From assembly GCA_947568835.1 (NCBI GenBank), contig OX387602.1, forward strand, positions 1,954,570-2,018,569: a DNA stretch of 64,000 bases, written 5' to 3'. A program made the position numbers and the translations under genes. Positions 3,024 through 64,000 of this stretch are shown here, piece by piece; the first letter of the stretch is position 1, and every line of letters starts with the position of its first letter. The stretch comes from Protonemura montana. Its lineage: Eukaryota > Arthropoda > Insecta > Plecoptera > Nemouridae. The notes under the pieces are model-generated. The model made no database searches. It was not told the DNA's origin and worked only from the letters and a program-made list of their open reading frames with translations.

Positions 3024-3593
3024 TAGTCTAGGAATATCGACGGCAAAAAGGGGCGTGTCCGTATTCGGTGTTATATAAAGCTGAAATTTTGATATTATGT
3101 GCATAACACCATGACACAACTATTGTCACAAACCCGGACAAAAAATTTTCATCGGAAGACATTCAAAAAAATTACCAAAGTCAAAATTTCTTAAAAAATG
3201 AAAATTTCTTAAAAGTTTAATAAGTAAGTCATTTTTGGAGATAGAAACGTCTAGTTTCCGCAGAAGCCTAGGCATTAATACGTTATATCGATACCGTTTT
3301 TAAAAAACATCAAAAAGTTTTTGCAAACCTATGATATGAGCCAAAAAATAGCTAAAAAAACGCAAAAAAAAATATATACCACTTTTCACTTAATGCCACG
3401 GGACCAAATATTGGCCAAATGTTATTAAACGAGTTTGTAAAGATAGCTCAATTCATTGTCTACAAGACTGCAGATCTAACTTTTTGAACACGTCAAGTTC
3501 ACAACTGAGATTTTTGCTTCTCCCTACGAGAGGTAACTCTTGGCGCGCTGCCAAGCGCCGATAAGCCGTGCGGCTGGCTGGTTAATAGCATGC
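3024..3593 (+). repeat. Left terminal inverted repeat
   Basis: This arm matches the reverse complement of 5996-6574. The first 17 bases (3024-3040) pair with 6558-6574, then 3041-3061 is unrelated to its counterpart, and from 3062 to 3593 the match is almost perfect. A TATATAAAG box sits at about 3072-3080, facing inward, and could drive internal transcription. A GC-rich palindromic module closes the inner end. Confidence 0.9.
3539..3581 (+). repeat. GC-rich palindromic module of the left arm
   Basis: This 43-bp module contains three overlapping small palindromes: CTTGGC...GCCAAG, GGCGC...GCGCC and AGCCG-TG-CGGCT. It is strikingly GC-rich inside AT-rich arms and is copied exactly, inverted, at 6008-6050. 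By position and structure it could be a transposase-binding or strand-exchange site, but this is inference. Confidence 0.7.
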
Positions 3594-4389
3594 GTAGTGT
3601 GCTTTGAATGGCATACTAGCGTTGAGTGCGCAGGCTCATTGATACTACGTTAGGTCCGCACTTGATTTCATATTATTTACCTAAAATTGGAGGCTTTTTG
3701 TTTTTTGTCTGTAAATTTGGTCTGTTTCTTGATTTTTACATAAAAAAAAAAGTTATATATTCGAATATATCAACCATACCTTGCTCTCTGTTTTAACCAC
3801 GTGCAGAGGTTTGAGGATCTTCAGAATCCGAGATAATGATTTTCAATAAGACTGCGAACAGATTTGTCGAGGTATATCCACTTGACATGGGTTTCGATGG
3901 CTTGCAGGGTTAGTTTGCTGGCTTGCCAGTTTGCTACCCACATTCAAAGCAGGACGACGAATATTATTGATAATTTCTGAAAATTCTCCCAAATATATGG
4001 AATGCAAATGGCATGAAGATAAATAACATGCGCGTAAACTCACTTGTTTACTCACTAATTCACTAGTTACTCAGCAATGATTTTGTTTATTTGTGCAAGT
4101 GAAAAGATCGCCTACAAAACGGAATACCTAGCAATACGGATGGGTATGTAGTAATGCATGCTTCCTCATACTAGATCCATGTTATCATGACAGTTAATTT
4201 TATTCACTATTTTCACTTAGCAGAGAAAACAGGAGATAGCTGCGAACCCTCCACTTGCAGAACAGAATCTAGAAAAATAATTTCCACCACAGGTATTGGA
4301 AATTTTTTTCAGTTAGCGTTCCTAACCAGCGAGAATGTTCCTAATATAACAGAAAAGGGTCTAATAAGCAAAAGACAATGATATTGCAA

Positions 4390-5954
4390 GAACAATAAAT
4401 CAAGCAAGCAAGAAAGGGTATCAAATTTTTCCTTACAAATATCAAGGCAAGAAAGTTGCAGAGAGCAGTACACCAACAAAAAAAATATTGACATGGCAAA
4501 AAACGTAGGCTCGAGTCCCCTAACTTAAACAGAGGTGAAACACCACCCCCAAACAAACGGGTATCGCGTTCAACAATGCCAGAGTTTGACTGGAGCATAT
4601 ACCGTTTCATTATCCATCAATTAAGAGATACAAACAAGACAGGACGTAAAGTTTCTCTCGTTGACATGAATCCGGAGTCTCTTAGGGAAAATGTATTGAA
4701 AGCAACCAAAGAGAGAAATGACGGGGTAATTTTAAATCGAATGACATTCGGTTCCCTCTTTGAGGTAAACGCCAGCTACCATGCAGATTGTTTGTCGAAA
4801 TATCTGAGTGCTAACAGCATTGAGGCATGTAAAAATGTCCAAACCGTCTCACAATACGATCGCGCTGCTGTCAACACACAAGCGTGTATTTCGGATAAAA
4901 TGAGGAGATGGAAAATTATACCAATTCCCAACGTTTGCGAAAAATACAGGGAATTCCTCATTGCTGAGGGTGTAGACACTAAAGTGGCAAGTTCGTGTCA
5001 CCTACAAGTATTTAATACACAATAAACTAATTAGCAACAGCAAGGACCAAACCATCTCATTCCACTATTGCACAGGAAACCTCCCAGGTATCATGTGCTC
5101 AGATTTTCTTTCTATTGGGCTGTTATATCAGCAAAAACGGGATCAGTCGGGAAAAGCACCGATGCACATCGGTTCATTCCTGTACACGAAATTGCATTGA
5201 AAATTGGGCTCCCAATAAGCATCGCTTTGCAGCCCCATGCACTGTCCGGCTGTGACACTGTTTTAAACGTTTTTCGGAATCGGTAAAAAAAGGCTTTGGC
5301 GTCAACTGAATAAAATGACCCGAGACGAGTTGTCACTTTTGGCCAATTTTTCAGACATTTTGGAAAAGGTGAGCACCGCTCGAAGTTTGGTGATTAAATT
5401 GTACGATACAAACAAGAAATTCCGACAGTATCATTACTCGCTAAATGCACTGCGTTTTAAGATAGCAGTGTCGCGACCTATCTCAATTGCCAATATACTC
5501 CCGAGCGAAGGGGCATTTCATCAGCACCTTCGACGAGCTGCATGGCAATGTAGCACTTAGGTAAACTCGCACGTGCAATTTCCAAAAATGTGGCTTAAGT
5601 TTACCAAAGTAATATTCAAAGCTACCAGAGGTTTTTGAACTAGAATTTAAATGTCGTCTCTATTTTTCTTCTTCTTATTATTATTTTTATTATTTGTGGT
5701 GAAAGGTCCCGAAGACAGTGGCTGGTGTCAGAGCCTGGGCAGAAAGTTCGTCTTACCTGTATATTTCGAGGGTCAAACAGCCATGGAAATGTTGCAAAAT
5801 TTCAGTCAAGTCCAAAAAATCCTGCAGCATAAACCCCACTTGCACGTGCAATAGCAATGGAATTGGATGCATCGACGTATGCAGGTGTGATAGGGAATGC
5901 TACAATGCCTATAGTGACATGATCGACAATGCCGACGAAGAAACGCTTCAATGA
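4390..5954 (+). pseudogene. Transposon-encoded GCDT-family protein, fragmented
   Basis: Plus-strand pieces occur in order but in different frames. A piece at about 4400-4520 includes ESCREQYTNKKNID, like the C-R-x-x-Y-T-N-K-[KR]-x-I motif near the N-terminus of this family. The longest open piece (4576-5025) begins MPEFDWSIYRF and includes LFEVNASYHADCLSKYL, resembling the family's A-x-Y-H-x-x-C motif. The next piece (5068-5286) carries IALQPHALSGCDTVLNVF, the most diagnostic signature. Then comes a stretch at 5290-5560 with KKRLWRQLNK, and a cysteine-rich tail (about 5790-5925) with CTCNSNGIGCIDVCRCDREC. The methionine at 4576 is probably internal, since family-like sequence precedes it. Proteins of this type are abundant in cnidarian and arthropod genomes and are of uncertain function. 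Broken by at least a few frame changes, or interrupted by introns; the family's central part appears short. Recognition is from memory of motifs, not a search. Confidence 0.6.
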
Positions 5955-5995
5955 TGTACGCACGCATGGATGTATCAAGAGCGTTCCAAGCAATA

Positions 5996-6574
5996 GCATG
6001 CTATTTGCCAGCCAGCCGCACGGCTTATCGGCGCTTGGCAGCGCGCCAAGAGTTACCTCTCGTAGGGAAAAGCAAAAATCTCAGTTGTGAACTTGACGTG
6101 TTCAAAAAGTTAGATCTGCAGTCTTGTAGACAATGAATTGAGCTATCTTTACAAACTCGTTTAATAACATTTGGCCAATATTTGGTCCCGTGGCATTAAG
6201 TGAAAAGTGGTATATATTTTTTTTGCGTTTTTTTAGCTATTTTTTGGCTCATATCATAGGTTTGCAAAAACTTTTTGATGTTTTTTAAAAACGGTATCGA
6301 TATAACGTATTAATGCCTAGGCTTCTGCGGAAACTAGACGTTTCTATCTCCAAAAATGACTTACTTATTAAACTTTTAAGAAATTTTCATTTTTTAAGAA
6401 ATTTTGACTTTGGTAATTTTTTTGAATGTCTTCCGATGAAAATTTTTTGTCCGGGTTTGTGACAATAGTTGTGTCATGGTGTTATGCACATAATATCAAA
6501 ATTTCAGCTTTATATAACACCGAATATCCTAACTTCTCTATTTGAAGAGATAGCCGCTCGATATTCCTAGACTA
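5996..6574 (-). repeat. Right terminal inverted repeat
   Basis: This is the reverse complement of the left arm. By eye the differences over about 530 bp are a one-base change in length of an A run, one C/T substitution and two bases near the inner end. The segment at about 6528-6557, just inside the outer 17 bases, differs from the left arm and contains a short CTTC...GAAG palindrome. Confidence 0.9.
6008..6050 (-). repeat. GC-rich palindromic module of the right arm
   Basis: Exact inverted copy of the module at 3539-3581, at the inner boundary of the right arm. Exact conservation together with unusual base composition suggests a functional subterminal site. Confidence 0.7.
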
Positions 6575-16459: not shown

Positions 16460-16550
16460 ATGACTGGGTGCACTTTCCGGCTCGTGTGCGTCCTCGCGTT
16501 GACAGGCGTCGCTTCGTGGGACGGCGTCGTCGCCTTGGGCTTGGGAAGAG
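16460..16550 (+). CDS. Probable first coding exon encoding a signal peptide
   Basis: The ATG at 16460 opens MTGCTFRLVCVLALTGVASW, followed by DGVVALGLGR. This has the form of a signal peptide: a short basic n-region (to Arg7), a hydrophobic core of about 11 residues (LVCVLALTGVA) and a plausible cleavage point after VAS or a little later. The start is supported by A at -3 and an in-frame TAA six codons upstream (16439-16441). Position 16550 ends the exon at GAAGAG|GTGAGA, a consensus splice donor, leaving phase 1. Without splicing the frame stops after 37 codons. The gene would be a secreted or membrane protein whose remaining exons lie beyond the window. The family cannot be recognised from the leader alone. 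A chance short ORF is the main alternative. Confidence 0.5.
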
Positions 16551-19500
16551 GTGAGACTTTGGCGTCGTGACGCCCCTAATCTAGTTACTCGGGCCGTCAA
16601 CGCCTGTGGCGGTGAAACGTGTTGGTGATAGTGCGCCCTCGGTGCACACCTAAAACTTGTGTCGTCTTCCCAACTTGTGTTTCGTGTTCAATGCTCGCTG
16701 TTATTATGAAAAGTTTGTAACGGCGCAAAACCTTTTCCCTAACTGGTATCGCATTTGAATTTTTATCACTAGCGCCAACACCTTGCCGTGCAACGTTTAA
16801 GCGAAATTTGTTTTTATCATTATTATCCCCTATTTGAGCGCGAAATATTGTGCTAGTTAATTGTTTCTATGAGAGTGGAAACCATTTAGCAGCGTTTTCT
16901 GCTAGACAGTCACGCATTTTACGAGCTCATTTAGAAAACGTATTTTCCCCGAATATTAAGAGTGAGGATAATCTTAATAGGAAATGAAACCAGCACCAGC
17001 AGTTCGAGCTGTGAAAACGCACCCCAATTTTCTTTTATTTCACTTCGCTATTGAACTATCCAACTAAAAAATGAAGAGAGACATTTCTTGCGTTAGTTTA
17101 GTTCAATGGCCTAAAACATTTAAACGAATGCAAAAAACGTTTCCACAAACGTTTTACCTAAACCTGTACTTCAAATGTTGAAAGATCTCTTATTTCTCAA
17201 AACCTACGTTTTGTCAGCCGGATATTTTGCCTGATGTCACAATATTTCCTGTGTTGTGGGAAAGCGGAAAAGTGGAAAAGCGGAAGAGCGGGGTCAGTGC
17301 AGCCAATGCAATAAGAGAGAGTACCTACGCGTACATGTTAAGAACCAACTTCTCGTGTATTGGGAAACGCTTTCGTTCTCGTCGCCGAAAGCCAGACTCG
17401 GATCTCTGGAGAGAAATGTACAATATTTGGGAGACAGACATTCGTGGTGTGAATAATATGGACAGTAAATGTTCAACTCGCTTTCTGGACCGCTAAGGAA
17501 ATGCCCAGAGTTTAACTTTATATAAAAACAAAATAAAAATACAAAAAAGACGAAGAGGACAGAAAAATTAAAATAAAACAAAATTCGTGTTCGTGTTTAC
17601 CTAAAAGCTACTTGAATTTAAAAACGGTGGTGAGTGAATGTGCCGTTCAAGCAAGGCTAAGTATTCAAATGGCACCAACACCAACTTGTTCAAACAAATC
17701 ATCGCAGCGCTGCTCTAATTTCATAATAAAAAAGTAATGAACGTACAATAATATGACGAGCGCATGTTAATATTATTAAAAAAATCAGAGTGCCCGCTAC
17801 CAGGGAGGCCTGAGGCATGATCGTTCCTCCGAACGGTCCTCGTCGCGGCGGTCGTTGACAGTCCTGCTGCTACCTGTAATTATGGCACAGCAGCCTGGTT
17901 ATTTGGACAGGCAGTGAGCATTATTTACCCCACGATGGCAATTAACATCGGTGACTGTCTGACCTAACAGTGGCCAAGCACATGACGGGCAAAGCGGGGT
18001 TGACATGACATATACCCATATTTATACAACATTGTTTGGATAGAAGTGGCAGATATACAAGGGTTCAGCTTGTTTAGCGGCTACGCCAGTGTACCTAACT
18101 GCCAACAAGCGAGGTACCTACTCGTGTATCCTGCGGGTCTATGGGCAAACTTTAAAATTTCTCACCACAATTGATTGGTATTTATTGATTATTTTGATCC
18201 CGTAATGGTTTAATTCTCATGTGTCTAAATGCCATCAGAAATGATTTCATTCTGCCTTTGTCGCCGCTGAAATACGTTGGTTAGGACATATAATTTAAAA
18301 ACTCACGAGTCCTTTATTTGATTTAAAGTTCAGATATATGCTTTTATTAAATTTATCTCTGAAAGAACTTCCCTAACTTTGTACCCAAAGATAGCAACAA
18401 ACCGCTAAATAACACTGCAATTTCTCTAGTGCATTCATTTCAAATTACTTACATTTCCTTCGAGAAAGAGCGACAAAATTGTTTTTATTATTTGTTTGTT
18501 GTCTTAGCCGTCAAACAGCTAAAGTACCATTATGGTCGGGTAGCACATGACGGCGTCAAGAGACTTGAGACACAAGCTTTGCAATCAGATCCGCCTCAAC
18601 ACCGCAAAGAAAGTTTTGGCGAACGCAATAAGGGTGATTGCTCACGGGAGAGATACACGATAGCTATACTCTGTCGATTAGAGAACTTACTCTCCTTGGT
18701 TTCCGTCTTCAGGAAAAGCGGCATCGTGACATGACAACCACTTTGACTTGACTTGTGCCGTGGGGTTACTGTCATACCAGGGCACTGTTCATTCGAATTA
18801 CCGTGGATGAAAGCAATTCTATTCAAGTAATGGTAACATTGGTATTTGAATGCTCGGAACGAATCCAGTGTCGCTATGTCATATCGAAACATTTACTCTA
18901 ATTGTTTGTTAATAAGAGTATATAGTTCAAGTCGTGCCGTGCCTGCCCTTGTAGGGGAGCCGAACTGAAATACCAAAATGAATTGGATCTAATTTTATCG
19001 CATTGTGTGGGTTATTCATATCGAGTCCCACGTCGGCTGACGGGCGCACCTACCCTTTGAGTCTCGGTGGAGCAACCCCACAATTTACTGCTTTATTCTG
19101 CACGAAAATCCCCACGACGCGGCTGACTTGCTCTCAATCTCCAGCGGCTAAAGGTTAGGGAAACATATTGTCTGTGGAACTTTGAAAAGATCTCGGTTGT
19201 ATACTTTCAAACTCGATTCTTATAAGAAACGGAACAATTTATGTGAACGCCGATCGATTTTGAATAGACGCAGGATCGGTACGTGATTAGGTTGACTTGT
19301 GTACAATCTTTGGGGGGTTTAAACCAGTAACTAATTAGCACGCCTCGATTTCGATTTTTTTTACCATGTTCCAAAGGAAAGAAGGTCAAGCGCAAGGGAG
19401 CAAAACTCACTTAAGATAAGACAAATGATGTTTCAGCGCTGAACAAGGGTTAAATGAATTTTGTGATGTTTTTTTTGAAAAATGATCAAACACTCAGGTC

Positions 19501-23460: not shown

Positions 23461-23646
23461 TTATTATTATCAACACTATAACCGTCTCAAAAAGTGTTGT
23501 TCGAACGGGGACACGAACCCCGATCTCCACCTGTCGCGGGTGTGGCTCTAAACCATTGAGCTACTTGGACACTGGCTTTTTGATATTAGCTTTTGTCCCC
23601 GTTTGGGCAACAATTTTTGAGACGGTTATAGTGTTGATAATAATAA
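23461..23646 (-). mobile_element. 186-bp foldback element with embedded tRNA-like sequence
   Basis: The outer 33 bp (23461-23493 and 23614-23646) are perfect inverted repeats. Inward of them the arms remain similar, with a few mismatches, for about 19 more bases, up to 23512 and back from 23595. Between and partly within the arms, on the minus strand, is a tRNA-like sequence (23499-23570) with polymerase III promoter boxes; its T-arm and 3' acceptor strand overlap the inverted repeat. The ends read TTATTAT..., so a TTA/TAA target duplication is possible but ambiguous. It may be a tRNA-derived SINE that acquired inverted ends, or a MITE that captured a tRNA. I do not recognise a named family. 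Confidence 0.7.
23499..23570 (-). tRNA. tRNA-like sequence, probably a pseudogene within the foldback element
   Basis: Read on the minus strand, 72 nt fold as a cloverleaf. The A box is TAGCTCAATGG and the D stem GCTC/GAGC is perfect. The T arm is perfect (CGGGG/CCCCG) with a TTCGTGT loop, and GGTTCGTGTCC is one base off the usual B box. Defects argue against a functional tRNA: the acceptor stem pairs at only five of seven positions, the outer anticodon-stem pair is mismatched, and the base before the anticodon is G instead of T. With the loop read as CGCGACA the anticodon would be CGA, but the identity is unreliable. Confidence 0.5.
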
Positions 23647-37784: not shown

Positions 37785-37826
37785 CCTAATCTAATACAAC
37801 GTGTTTTCTTTCATTACAGGTAAGCG
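37785..37826 (+). promoter_or_regulatory. Candidate recursive (zero-length exon) splice site
   Basis: An acceptor and a donor are directly joined: TTTTCTTTCATTACAG followed at once by GTAAGC, with the junction between 37819 and 37820. Upstream are two tandem CTAAT branch-point matches (37785-37789 and 37791-37795), about 25-32 bases before the AG, then a T-rich tract. This is the arrangement known for recursive splice sites in long Drosophila introns, where the intron is removed in steps and the donor is regenerated. It lies about 21.3 kb downstream of the donor at 16551 on the same strand. No function is proven, and a chance acceptor/donor pairing is possible. Confidence 0.5.
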
Positions 37827-37829
37827 ACT

Positions 37830-40800
37830 TCTACAAATGCCTGGATCGCTGTCGAGACCATTCGAACTGCCAGTGCCAGTTGCCGACTTCTTTGTAATTA
37901 TTACCGAATCGTCCGCGATTCTTTGTTGTTGCTGGTGGCAAACAAACGTTTACAAATGTTATGATTCTGAATTCTAAAATAGCATGACACACACACAAAT
38001 GCGCTCCGGTATACATATTTATCATCGGAGATAAATTATGCTGGAACCGCTCGGGGGTGTTAATTACTCAAGCAGGGATATGAATATCATTTCTTAATTA
38101 ATATTATTCGCTCTCTGAACCAACGTTTACATATTTGCTGCGATTAATTTACTTGCACAACTTGCAAAGTAAAAGGAGATATTTGTATTTAATATACACA
38201 CTGTTGGACCCCTCCATCCTCCACCTCCACCTCCTCCCCACGGCACCACTGTAAGTGCTTAACCAGGCTTTTATCAAACTGCAGCCGGAGCGTCGCATTT
38301 TCTTGCTTTTATTTGGATGCAGAAGAAAATATGACAACCTTACTTCAACAGATTTTCAGAGGAACTGATAGCCCCTCTCTTCCCAACAGTTATTTAGAAT
38401 CATACAGTGATTTAGGATAAGCAATTGCCTGGTGGTCAATTACTCGTAATTAAAAAAATACAAAAAAAGTCATAAAATTGCTGAACTGTAGTTTTTTCCC
38501 CCCGATTAGACATTTGCATGATTAGGGCTTCTAGCCCATGAGTTGGCTGACGCATATGGATAGACCGACCACTGTATGATAATTGAACGCGGTGGCTCTG
38601 GAGTTCTATACACGGCCCTTCTTTGACCGAATCCCGGCCAACTCACAGCTGACCGCTCGCCGGTCAGCTGCATTGCAATTATCATCATTGCAATTAATGT
38701 GCAATAAACCGTGATTCCGCTCGCAATTATCGGTGCATTCGATCACGAATCAAAAAGCCCAAAGTTGGTTAAAATGTGCACCGTTTTTCATCAGAAATTT
38801 AGTAAAAAAAAATACATAATTTAATTATTTAATAAGCTTATGTTATAACAATTAAGCAAGACAATAATCAATAAATAATTGTAATGTTGCAAGGCTGAAA
38901 GGCACTGGTTGTACTGGTTGCATTGCGTTAGTGTGAGTGGGCCCGTTGCGAGCCTGGGATGATGAGGAAGGGAGATAATAGATTCAAGCCACTCAATCAA
39001 TATGCGTTGTTTGTGAAACTATAACATTCTCAGTAAAGTTCGCCAGAAACATAATTGTAGGTCCTTGTTTACCACGCGCGCGTGTGTTAGTCAACGAATA
39101 TAACCCAACAAAGCTGTTGGCTACCCATCAGTTCTGCAGAGTAATTATTTGAGACTTAGTCTTGGACATGGCCATACCTAATTTAACAGCGACGTAGCGC
39201 CAAAGTTAGCAATGATTCCAACTAATTTCAACTTAAGACCGTTGCTTCCTTTGCTGCACATTCCCAACTCAATTAAAATATAATCACAAATTATCAGTGG
39301 GAATAACGACTCGCCGTGGTTCACTTTCTAAGGCGGGCTAGCGTTTAAATTCTCCGAAGAAGCGGAAAAATGGGGCTGCGTCTACCACCCCTGTCATGAC
39401 ACCTATTCGAGAAAAACCGTTAAGATAAAACACCATCCGAGCACTTTTTTTTAATTAAAAATGTGATCAAACATTTCATTTCAACGCAATCAAAGGCCAC
39501 GAATGCTGAGCGAGAAAAAATGTCAATGAGCTCGCCATGAGCGCTAATTTGGTGCCATCCAAAATGCAATAAACGCGATCCAGGTTTTCTTTAAGACCCG
39601 TACCCAGTGCGCATTCCCCCCGATGCAAATAGCTTATCTACCCTTTTCATGGCACCAATAAGAATACTTAAAAGCAGCCCTGAAAACCCCCCAACCCCCC
39701 ATTCGGCTTTCGTAAGGGGTGGTTTTCCGGTGGCTCTTTTGCAAGCAAGCGAGTGCGTGTGTATGTATATATACGAACTCTTTATTTAGTATTTTTCCTT
39801 GGACGAGCAAAATTCACCCCAGCGATACACTTCAGTACGCAGCCCAGATGCTATATTTTGTGTCGTTACCCCCGCCCGCCCCGGTGTAGTTTTTCCTTCT
39901 CTATTGAGCGAAAATGCGAAATATGCAAAAACTGGTCCGGCGAAGGTACCACAGAGTAAATAAAATTATAAATCATACAAGGAATTTAGCTTGGCACGCG
40001 CGGGTGGATCATTAAACCCAAATTTAATCCTCGAATATAATATTTCAATCAAAACTTCTAAATTTTACTAAAAGGTAATCTTCCCTCACCCTCGCCTCGC
40101 ATTTAAAATACTGCATCTGGGTGCAAATACATGGTCCCCTCGTTCGGTGGATTCTATGGCCTGAGGGAGGAACCAATCACAGTCGAGCCAACTTTGCATA
40201 TGGCTAGGATTTTTAATGTAAGTAATGGCATTGGCATCTCGTACCGAGGCAGAAACCGGACGCTTTGCGAAGATTTTCCTGGCAACTTTTGCCAATCCGG
40301 CTTTTGGAGCGTGTTTGCTGTTTGTACAATTTTATTGATAGTTTAGCTTCAGTACCGCTACTGATGGAACATATTGATATACATAAAATCTTCTTCCTCT
40401 TCCCTAACTCCATTCTACTAAGATACTGCTTAACCTTTGCCAGCCTTGTGCCAATATTTGGATCAAATTTACGAAATGTGAAGGCACATCCACTATACTG
40501 AAGCTCAGCGCAACATCAATATTGACGCGTTTTGAAGAGTTTTCACTTAGATACTCATGGTTTATTTAATCAAATGCTAAAATATGAGTCATATCAACAA
40601 TCTGTCCGTATATTGGTATCACTCACGCGACCAGGTTTGCCCTAAGGGGCGTTGTTCGAAGCCCGGGCCGCAGGAAAGCGCGTGTACTTACTTTCATTCA
40701 CGGAAATTGATTCTGCACATACGTATACCTACGTGCCCATTAGGACACCCTGATATTATCATTTTTATGTAATTGATTTCACATTAGGTTCACTCACAAG

Positions 40801-44796: not shown

Positions 44797-46740
44797 ACCG
44801 CCGCCCTTAGGTTGGGTGCACTCTCAGGACGTGAGGCAGGATGCTTGAGAATGGCCTCTGGCGAAGTTCAGGCGTTTAATTACTAGAAGATTACCGTTAA
44901 ATTCAAAGCTAACTTAATTCTGGGTGGGCCGGGTGCAGATGACGCGAGACTTGGTTGAGAACGACGCCCGAAGCGACGCCTCTCTGGCCTTAAACCAAGA
45001 GCGTCGCGACGCCGAAATTTAAGCCATCAAATCTCACTCACGGCCCTTGTTGAGTGTTTAATGAGTTGAGTGGACTTTTATGACACAATGTCTCAGTATG
45101 TTTCTACCGCTTTGTATTGTTGAGAGGAAGACGACGGCAGACATCAAGAACGAATCGAATCAAACGTATCGTGCATTTTATTGTGAAAACTCTGGGGCTC
45201 GGTACAGTAAGTTCACAATTGGAAACTTCTAGGCCATGTCAACCATTATGTTTTGTAAGTGGATAAAGGACAATTCTCGATATTATTAGGGCAAAAGAAA
45301 CGTTATGGCCATTCGCTAGATCTGCAGCTCCGTATTTCGAAAGCTATATAGCTTTTCGAGTCGCAAGGAAGAGCCACCGATTCCGCTGGTCATCTTCTGC
45401 GCCTATTATCTGCACTATAATACATAATATTAGCTAAACGACCCGCCATGCGTCCACGTTAGTAGCGCGTAGCGCGTGGCCCCCTTATGCCACGACGCCG
45501 AGTCCAGCGACGCCAGCCAGAGCGCTATCAAAAGATCCAGACGCTGCGGCCGCCGCAATAAAAACGTAATATCTCGGCAAGTGGAAAATTCGTCCGCAGA
45601 GAAAATTCTGTTCGAAGCTCGATATTTATCATTCACTTAAGAAGCGCTTCAAGTAACTCACATCATTGACCACCACGCCTTTATATTGAATCAAAATTTG
45701 TCATTGCTTTTATTTTGCACCACTCACATCCAATAGCAAGTTTTGTTAAAAAAAAAAGGATGTCATAAAAGTATAAATCTTCTAGTTGTTGATATGAAAT
45801 CACGATTGCACGTGCATGGTCTTTAATTTAACTAACATTTTAATTAGGTACAAATGTTCAGAAGTTGGTTGTTGTCTGTATTTGCCGAGTCAGAGAGACA
45901 CCGCACTGTAGAATGGAGACCCCGTGATATTCCGCGAGAACGACGTTATGGAATTACATTTTAGCAACGATAGTTTCTCTTTGTGTGTTGTCTGGCTATT
46001 TATACGCTTGATTTGCCGTCGGAATTTAATTAATTTCTTGCACCAAGTGTTTTGAAAGGATGAATACTACATATAAAGAGATCTGGTATTGCAATGCTCG
46101 ATGAGAGGAAAGAGTCGCCATGCTTTATTTGGTTACGCCATACCATGTACACTACTACACTTCGGTGCTTGAATTGTTGACGCCGGCACCGAATACTATT
46201 TATTGAGCTTTGATCGTCGACGAAATCCCCACTTTATGTTACTGGCTGGCAAAGTCGGCTTGGATTGTTTCACCGCGAGAGTTGAGAGGAAACAATGCCA
46301 GCATTACTTCTGTGCAATTCAGGAATGTTTAATTTCTAGCATCTCTATTCCGCGCATTGTTTTCCACCGATAAGACGATAAGATGCTAAAAGACGTTCTG
46401 TGATTTATTGTTAGTTATTGAGCTCAGCGGGTTGTAAACAAATGGAAACATGATAATTGTATACCAGAATCAGAATGTGAACACATTTTGGGGATACTTT
46501 TTTTCAAAAATATCTTTATATAAACATAGAAAGAAGTGACAAATCATATTAATAGGAAAGACATACGCTAGCAGCACTTTTAGCATCGAATGGCGGAGAC
46601 GTCGGTGAGCGCCACGCCGCGACGCCTCGACGACGGCACGCGCTCGGCACCGGCATTCAGCGCCCCGATGCGACGGCTCTTTTTGCCTGGCTGATTTGAG
46701 CGTTTGTTTCACCGTGTGGCTAACTAAATGGAAACCACAA

Positions 46741-63400: not shown

Positions 63401-64000
63401 TTTCGCGGGCCGGCAGCCTCCGCATGATCATGAAAGTGATTTATCATGTCGATATTGTATAATCCGCTTTTGTAGAATCTGGCTGTTTACAGCATCACCC
63501 CTGGCCTCTCCTCCCTCCCCCACCCAGCACTCACCCCACCCTACCGCACCATAGCACAACCCACCCCCATCAATGCACATAATATCGCAGTGTAGCCAGA
63601 GGCGGCAAGCCATTAGTACCAATGCATATGTCCATACAATTTCGCACTGATATATAACTCCAAGAGTATCTCGATTGGCAAAAAAAAAAGCTTCGGCGAG
63701 CAATTTGCTACAAATAATTGACAGTATTACTTAAAAAGAGTGTTGCGAGATGGATGAGGGTGTGGGGTTGGATTTCAAGGCGAAAAAAAGCTGTATGGAA
63801 TAATTTATCACTTACAGGAAAAACGACTTTGAAGATTGAGTAATACTGTTTCAGTTCTTAGTAATAAATATGTCAAAGCCCAAGTAAAAAAGGAAGAGAG
63901 AAATCTATGAAGAAATTGAATGATCATAAAATTTCAGAAGGAGGCAGACGCCGGTTAGAGGCATGATCGTTTCATCAGTAATCGATTATGTTGGACCGTG
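60432..64000. other. Non-coding stretch to the window end
   Basis: No gene is supported. The 26-bp duplication at 62931-62982 and a C-rich tract near 63500-63570 are the notable features. Short open frames are without motifs. The putative intron has not reached a recognisable acceptor and exon by 64000. Confidence 0.5.
62931..62982. repeat. 26-bp GC-rich tandem duplication
   Basis: Two adjacent 26-bp units (62931-62956 and 62957-62982) differ at one base and contain GCGCGAAGCTGGCCCGCGAG. Much richer in GC than the flanks. Confidence 0.9.

Follow-up and report, generated by a model that had tools for sequence, protein, structure and literature searches.

The window, a stretch of 64,000 nucleotides from contig OX387602.1 of the Protonemura montana assembly GCA_947568835.1, carries on its plus strand the predicted first exon of a gene whose next two exons were located beyond the window end (Table 1). 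Coordinates above 64000 continue the window numbering, and the 104 kb referred to below are the window plus the next 40 kb. Exon 1, whose signal peptide was assigned from hydrophobicity only, had both the top donor and the top hydrophobicity among three candidate first exons in 66.8 kb, and its peptide matched no other place in the genome at E 10. Exon 3 was clearly the top coding segment of the 104 kb (19.7 bits, the next reaching 13.4) by a codon-usage score whose model was trained on 30 of 30 correctly oriented kinase loci (9965 codons). Exons 1, 2 and 3 join in frame in phase 1 to give a signal peptide followed by an Ig domain, the arrangement looked for in an Ig-superfamily cell-adhesion protein, and the joined protein matched Pfam I-set with 28.9 bits, above the cut-off of 23.7 (E 1.2e-6), and, among 34 PDB sequences, resembled chains of sidekick-1, DCC, DIP-eta and Dpr4. 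An additional Ig exon was detected on this strand, at C1:2069795. We take the host to be a klingon-like Ig cell-adhesion gene (klingon/DIP/Dpr-like), the name being suggested by the motif; a literature search found no paper joining klingon with recursive splicing.

As the three exons join in phase 1, the first coding intron would extend from 16551 to 66826, ending at the exon 2 acceptor TTTGTTTCAG/GC at 66826/66827 (a slash marks a junction), and thus measure 50,276 nt, well above 40 kb, with the site under study on its sense strand, 42% along. The first-pass annotation had assigned this candidate to a long intron and had placed a same-strand signal-peptide exon about 21 kb upstream; that the intron belongs to the gene of this exon is supported at the sequence level by the in-frame exons 1–3, and exon 16460–16550 was indeed found there, with 21,269 nt between its end and the junction.

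Table 1. Features of the putative recursive splice site and of its host gene, in window numbering.
Feature	Position	Strand	Remarks
Exon 1 coding part, signal peptide MTGCTFRLVCVLALTGVASWDGVVALGLGR	16460–16550	+	ends in phase 1
Exon 1 5' splice site GAG/GTGAGA	16551–16556	+	10.0 bits, rank 2 of 2745 GT sites in 16541–66900
Predicted recursive segment 1 of intron 1	16551–37819	+	21,269 nt; from exon 1 end and AG at 37818–37819
CTAAT, branch-point-like	37786–37790	+	fourth-position A at 37789, 30 nt 5' of junction
Second CTAAT, branch-point-like	37791–37795	+	fourth-position A at 37794, 25 nt 5' of junction
Polypyrimidine tract TTTTCTTTCATT	37804–37815	+	read from letters
Candidate 3' splice site ACAG	37816–37819	+	12.0 bits, rank 4 of 2590 AG sites in intron 1
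Candidate 5' splice site GTAAGC, abutting acceptor	37820–37825	+	11.3 bits, rank 1 of 2745 GT sites
Predicted recursive segment 2 of intron 1	37820–66826, leaving window at 64000	+	29,007 nt; from exon 2 acceptor
Exon 2, TPRFLSRGQTFRAVIGDTLVLPCEVEDLG	66827–66934, past window end	+	motif search; phase 1 at both ends
Exon 3, Ig-domain exon	91919–92119, past window end	+	codon-usage score; phase 1 at both ends

The described series of a tandem CTAAT, a T-rich tract and ACAG directly followed by GTAAGC was confirmed letter by letter, with the candidate junction at 37819/37820 on the plus strand. Compared with the published tandem motif (y)nncag/gtaagt (PMC2773006, excerpt), TTTTCTTTCATTACAG/GTAAGC shows one mismatch, at donor position +6, where the candidate has C and the consensus T. 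The 201 nt around the site matched only themselves in the 258.5-Mb assembly, in a search that ignores simple repeats and very common words. The DNA itself shows the signals, how they are ordered, how strong they are and that they lie in sense orientation, as well as the intron around them and its reading frame. The site is likely to represent a zero-nucleotide exon, or intronic ratchet point, within the first coding intron (50,276 nt) of the Ig cell-adhesion gene.

Splice-signal strength was scored with a main matrix and a crude, near-flat one, both set up for the test and neither trained on this genome. With the main matrix, the combined acceptor and donor score of the candidate was 23.3 bits, which places it first among the 495 AGGT sites found when the two strands of the 104 kb are taken together, 7 bits ahead of every other, the runner-up scoring 16.3; none of 33 other loci (237,732 nt with both strands counted) held a site as good, the maximum there being 20.8. 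Among the gene's own sites, the acceptors of exons 2 and 3 scored 7.8 and 4.4 bits and the donors of exons 1 and 3 scored 10.0 and 8.9 bits, respectively; the candidate exceeds all four. The runner-up, TCCTTACAG/GTAAAC at 70145, is likewise in sense orientation, within this gene's 25-kb intron 2, and may be a weaker recursive site.

By chance, a strong but unused decoy acceptor in unconstrained intron sequence could have come to lie next to GTAAGC by accident. Strong-looking acceptors without known use are frequent in this sequence, where the candidate's acceptor is outscored by three other AG sites of intron 1, and under the crude matrix, where the candidate still ranked first with a lead of 1.1 bits (15.6 versus 14.5), a Markov null reached 0.085 and 0.06 equals per 50-kb strand at orders 2 and 3, respectively. 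The same null with the fuller matrix gave, for intron 1 at orders 1–4 (100 runs each), means of 0, 0.01, 0.01 and 0 equals per 50-kb strand and, with the site excluded from training, 0.01 and 0.005 at orders 2 and 3 (200 runs each). This near-zero expectation, the 7-bit gap to all other AGGT sites and the position of the site on the sense strand, 42% into a 50-kb intron, argue against coincidence, whereas the missing cryptic-exon donor discussed below and the antisense sites reported in honey bee, about one RP-site for every four sense ones (PMC2773006, excerpt), argue for it. On balance we consider a chance origin rather unlikely.

Were the site a ratchet point, step one would join exon 1, ending at 16550, to position 37820 and remove 21.3 kb. 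GTAAGC would then sit directly behind exon 1 and rebuild a 5' splice site, GAG/GTAAGC, which scored 10.4 bits compared with 10.0 for the original exon 1 donor. In step two, splicing of the rebuilt donor to the start of exon 2 (66827) would take out the other 29.0 kb, and the mRNA would keep nothing of the site itself. Use by the spliceosome, the order of the two steps and any benefit in accuracy or speed are what we infer from this arrangement. The reading of the site as a recursive splice site, already proposed in the first-pass annotation, holds as a strong prediction at the sequence level, the combined acceptor and donor being by far the best with the main matrix and the intron being in frame.

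Most of what is known of recursive splicing comes from Drosophila and mammals. Of fly introns longer than 40 kb, 63% were found to contain a high-confidence recursive site, single sites being biased to the intron midpoint and first introns being enriched (PMC6110457, excerpt). Like the ratchet points established in flies (Ubx, kuz, Bx, Ten-m), the candidate combines an abutting strong acceptor and donor on the sense strand of a very long intron near its midpoint; unlike them, it has C at +6, shows no donor above 3 bits that could close a cryptic exon in the next 430 nt, and is a prediction at the sequence level. For RP-sites in introns longer than 50 kb, the published sense to antisense ratios are 4.0 in bee, 8.0 in beetle, well above 10 in mosquito and 21.7 in fly (PMC2773006, excerpt). 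Ratios of 4–8, as in bee and beetle, imply that about three quarters or more of the sense-strand sites are real, and it is from this that our confidence in the ratchet-point reading was set; it therefore leans on ratios from other insects and assumes that this genome resembles that of bee or beetle. The bee, beetle and mosquito RP-sites are likewise sequence-level predictions of the same motif in introns longer than 50 kb of non-fly insects, although the present case concerns one single site with a worked-out gene model (PMC2773006, excerpt). With mammalian RS-exons, the candidate would share the regeneration of a 5' splice site after the first step; mammals, however, are said to have thousands of expressed RS-exons but hardly any intronic ratchet points that are fully suppressed (PMC8605326, excerpt), whereas no exon-closing donor is found near the present site. 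In an Apis mellifera-related paper, a 3-nt exon was not a recursive substrate (PMC8553928, excerpt). As the mechanism is already known from flies, what is new here is probably a candidate member in another genome, which in itself adds to a mechanism already established and would be no surprise to specialists; it does provide a clean single mid-intron candidate with exact predicted junctions that is easily tested.

In flies, ratchet points are accompanied by a cryptic exon of about 50 nt that typically ends at a weaker donor, although recursive splicing is defined by the tandem acceptor–donor pairs and the cryptic exon is an associated feature (PMC8605326, excerpt). A donor closing such a short RS-exon was not found at the present site: the best donor 30–300 nt 3' of the junction scored 2.9 bits, and none exceeded 3 bits within 430 nt in a search extending to 38320 in which the first to do so, at 38251 (6.8 bits), would close an exon of 431 nt. 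A possible weak donor, TTT/GTAATT, is present at 37894 (1.1 bits). Either the cryptic exon is unusually long, or a weak donor such as this was missed by the matrix, or none is needed, or the site is unused. That zero-nucleotide recursive splicing truly takes place at this site and needs no cryptic exon, the acceptor and the regenerated donor being sufficient, is a possibility that we put forward tentatively and with more doubt than belief. If true, such a site would be a natural test of the claim from flies that the short exon must be defined first, and the absence of the donor makes the locus a useful case for asking whether exon definition is required.

Alternatively, the acceptor could serve an expressed exon, cassette or terminal, that begins with GTAAGC and is spliced from exon 1. 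The acceptor is strong, the frame continuing from exon 1 stays open for 51 codons (GKRLLQMPGS...), a second phase holds a 25-residue reading that contains Cys, and A[AT]TAAA hexamers occur from 38449 onward; the best partial codon score, 5.0 in the phase of exon 1, corresponds to the 90th–95th percentile of random positions. Over the whole frame, however, both readings scored negative (−0.5 and −2.5), the Cys-containing one is out of phase with exon 1 and without Pfam match, and no donor above 3 bits would close a cassette within 430 nt. A coding exon after 37820 was accordingly rejected for both open phases, and an expressed alternative exon appears very unlikely to us.

The acceptor might also belong to a different transcript, for instance one that starts elsewhere, in which case the signal-peptide exon would not be its partner. 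Two further phase-1 hydrophobic first-exon candidates exist, at 1034–1154, upstream of exon 1, and at 45080–45206, downstream of the site, but exon 1 surpasses them in donor strength (10.0 versus 6.8 and 7.0 bits) and in hydrophobicity (2.72 versus 2.12 and 2.49), and it is the exon at 16460 that completes the Ig gene in frame. We regard this explanation as extremely improbable, and the recursive site between exons 1 and 2 as the preferred reading.

Across the genome, YYYYYYYYNCAG/GTAAGT occurred 27 times, compared with 11 and 10 occurrences of the control strings GTGAAT and GTTAGA, respectively, and six of the reversed pattern; the GTTAGA control had yielded 38 matches, of which 28 were set aside as copies of a repeat on contigs C26 and C32. 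These 28 copies, of TTTTTTYCTCAGGTTAGA, all lie on the plus strand, many of them a few kb apart, and are a satellite or tandem array. A looser GTRAG pattern, by which the candidate site is not matched because its tract has an A, gave 99 matches versus 43 for its reversed form. Among the 99, ten same-strand pairs lay within 100 kb of each other (three of them stemming from one triplet), whereas uniform placement gave about two and reached ten in 0 of 1000 runs; this null used guessed lengths for contigs C13–C15, two other guesses giving means of 2.2 and 2.0 same-strand pairs and, for each, ten pairs in 0 of 1000 runs. Opposite-strand pairs within 100 kb were also somewhat high, with five against a null mean of about 2.0, a number reached in 53–57 of 1000 runs.

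A donor of at least 8 bits was present 30–150 nt downstream at 7 of the 30 RP-like loci examined out of the 99, compared with 7.1% of positions drawn at random within these loci; it accompanied 6 of 15 sites with a high RP score and 1 of the 15 others, an association that was rejected (Fisher p 0.08). When the 99 matches were set against homeodomain, I-set and RRM exons, they showed no clear orientation towards these conserved exons: the numbers with a same-strand family exon downstream and upstream, respectively, were 1 and 3 within 30 kb, 4 and 5 within 60 kb, 9 and 7 within 100 kb, and 10 and 12 within 150 kb. For 21 control matches the counts were one downstream, none upstream and one opposite, at both 60 and 100 kb. 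The exon lists had been thinned by hand to 91 of 99 homeodomain, 63 of 151 I-set and 110 of 137 RRM matches (author's count), mostly by dropping neighbours within one gene, and three exons of the host gene and its paralogue were also taken in. Altogether, the moderate genome-wide excess is consistent with real recursive sites mixed with chance ones.

Two plus-strand RP-like sites, C1:12035647 and C1:12046261 (27.2 and 26.9 bits), lie 10.6 kb apart and are followed 79 and 118 nt 3' by donors of 10.9 and 12.8 bits, respectively; by these signals they have the appearance of successive ratchet points within a single long intron. Two minus-strand RP-like matches, C16:2890456 and C16:3036268, lie amid ten same-strand homeodomain exons at C16:2.28–3.32 Mb, a run that we presume to be the Hox cluster. 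Ubx is the gene in which fly recursive splicing was first described (PMC8605326, excerpt).

A paralogue of the host gene was located on the opposite strand near C1:2.16 Mb (64% over exon 3 and 52% over exon 2). An RP-like site of 24.6 bits at C1:2216598, followed after 69 nt by a donor of 11.2 bits, was found 48.8 kb upstream of exon 2 of this paralogue and shares its strand. In the one 10-kb stretch read for a first exon of the paralogue, a single weak candidate was seen (C1:2221039–2221102). Homology between this RP-like site and the candidate site was rejected, as comparison with the 3-kb locus gave just a 17-nt match (E 0.12).

Two other elements were observed in the window. At 3062–6526, inverted-repeat arms of about 530 nt (3062–3593 and 5996–6526), made up of a 310-nt pair with 100% and a 239-nt pair with 97% complementarity, enclose an open reading frame of 177 amino acids (4492–5025) without Pfam match; this structure suggests a DNA transposon of the type that has long terminal inverted repeats. 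No part of the window reached the gathering score of any Rfam family. ARAGORN called a tRNA-Ser (cga) on the minus strand at 23496–23571, but this call coincides in part with an arm of an inverted repeat (53 nt, 92%) at 23461–23646, and the feature is probably a small palindromic element or pseudogene.
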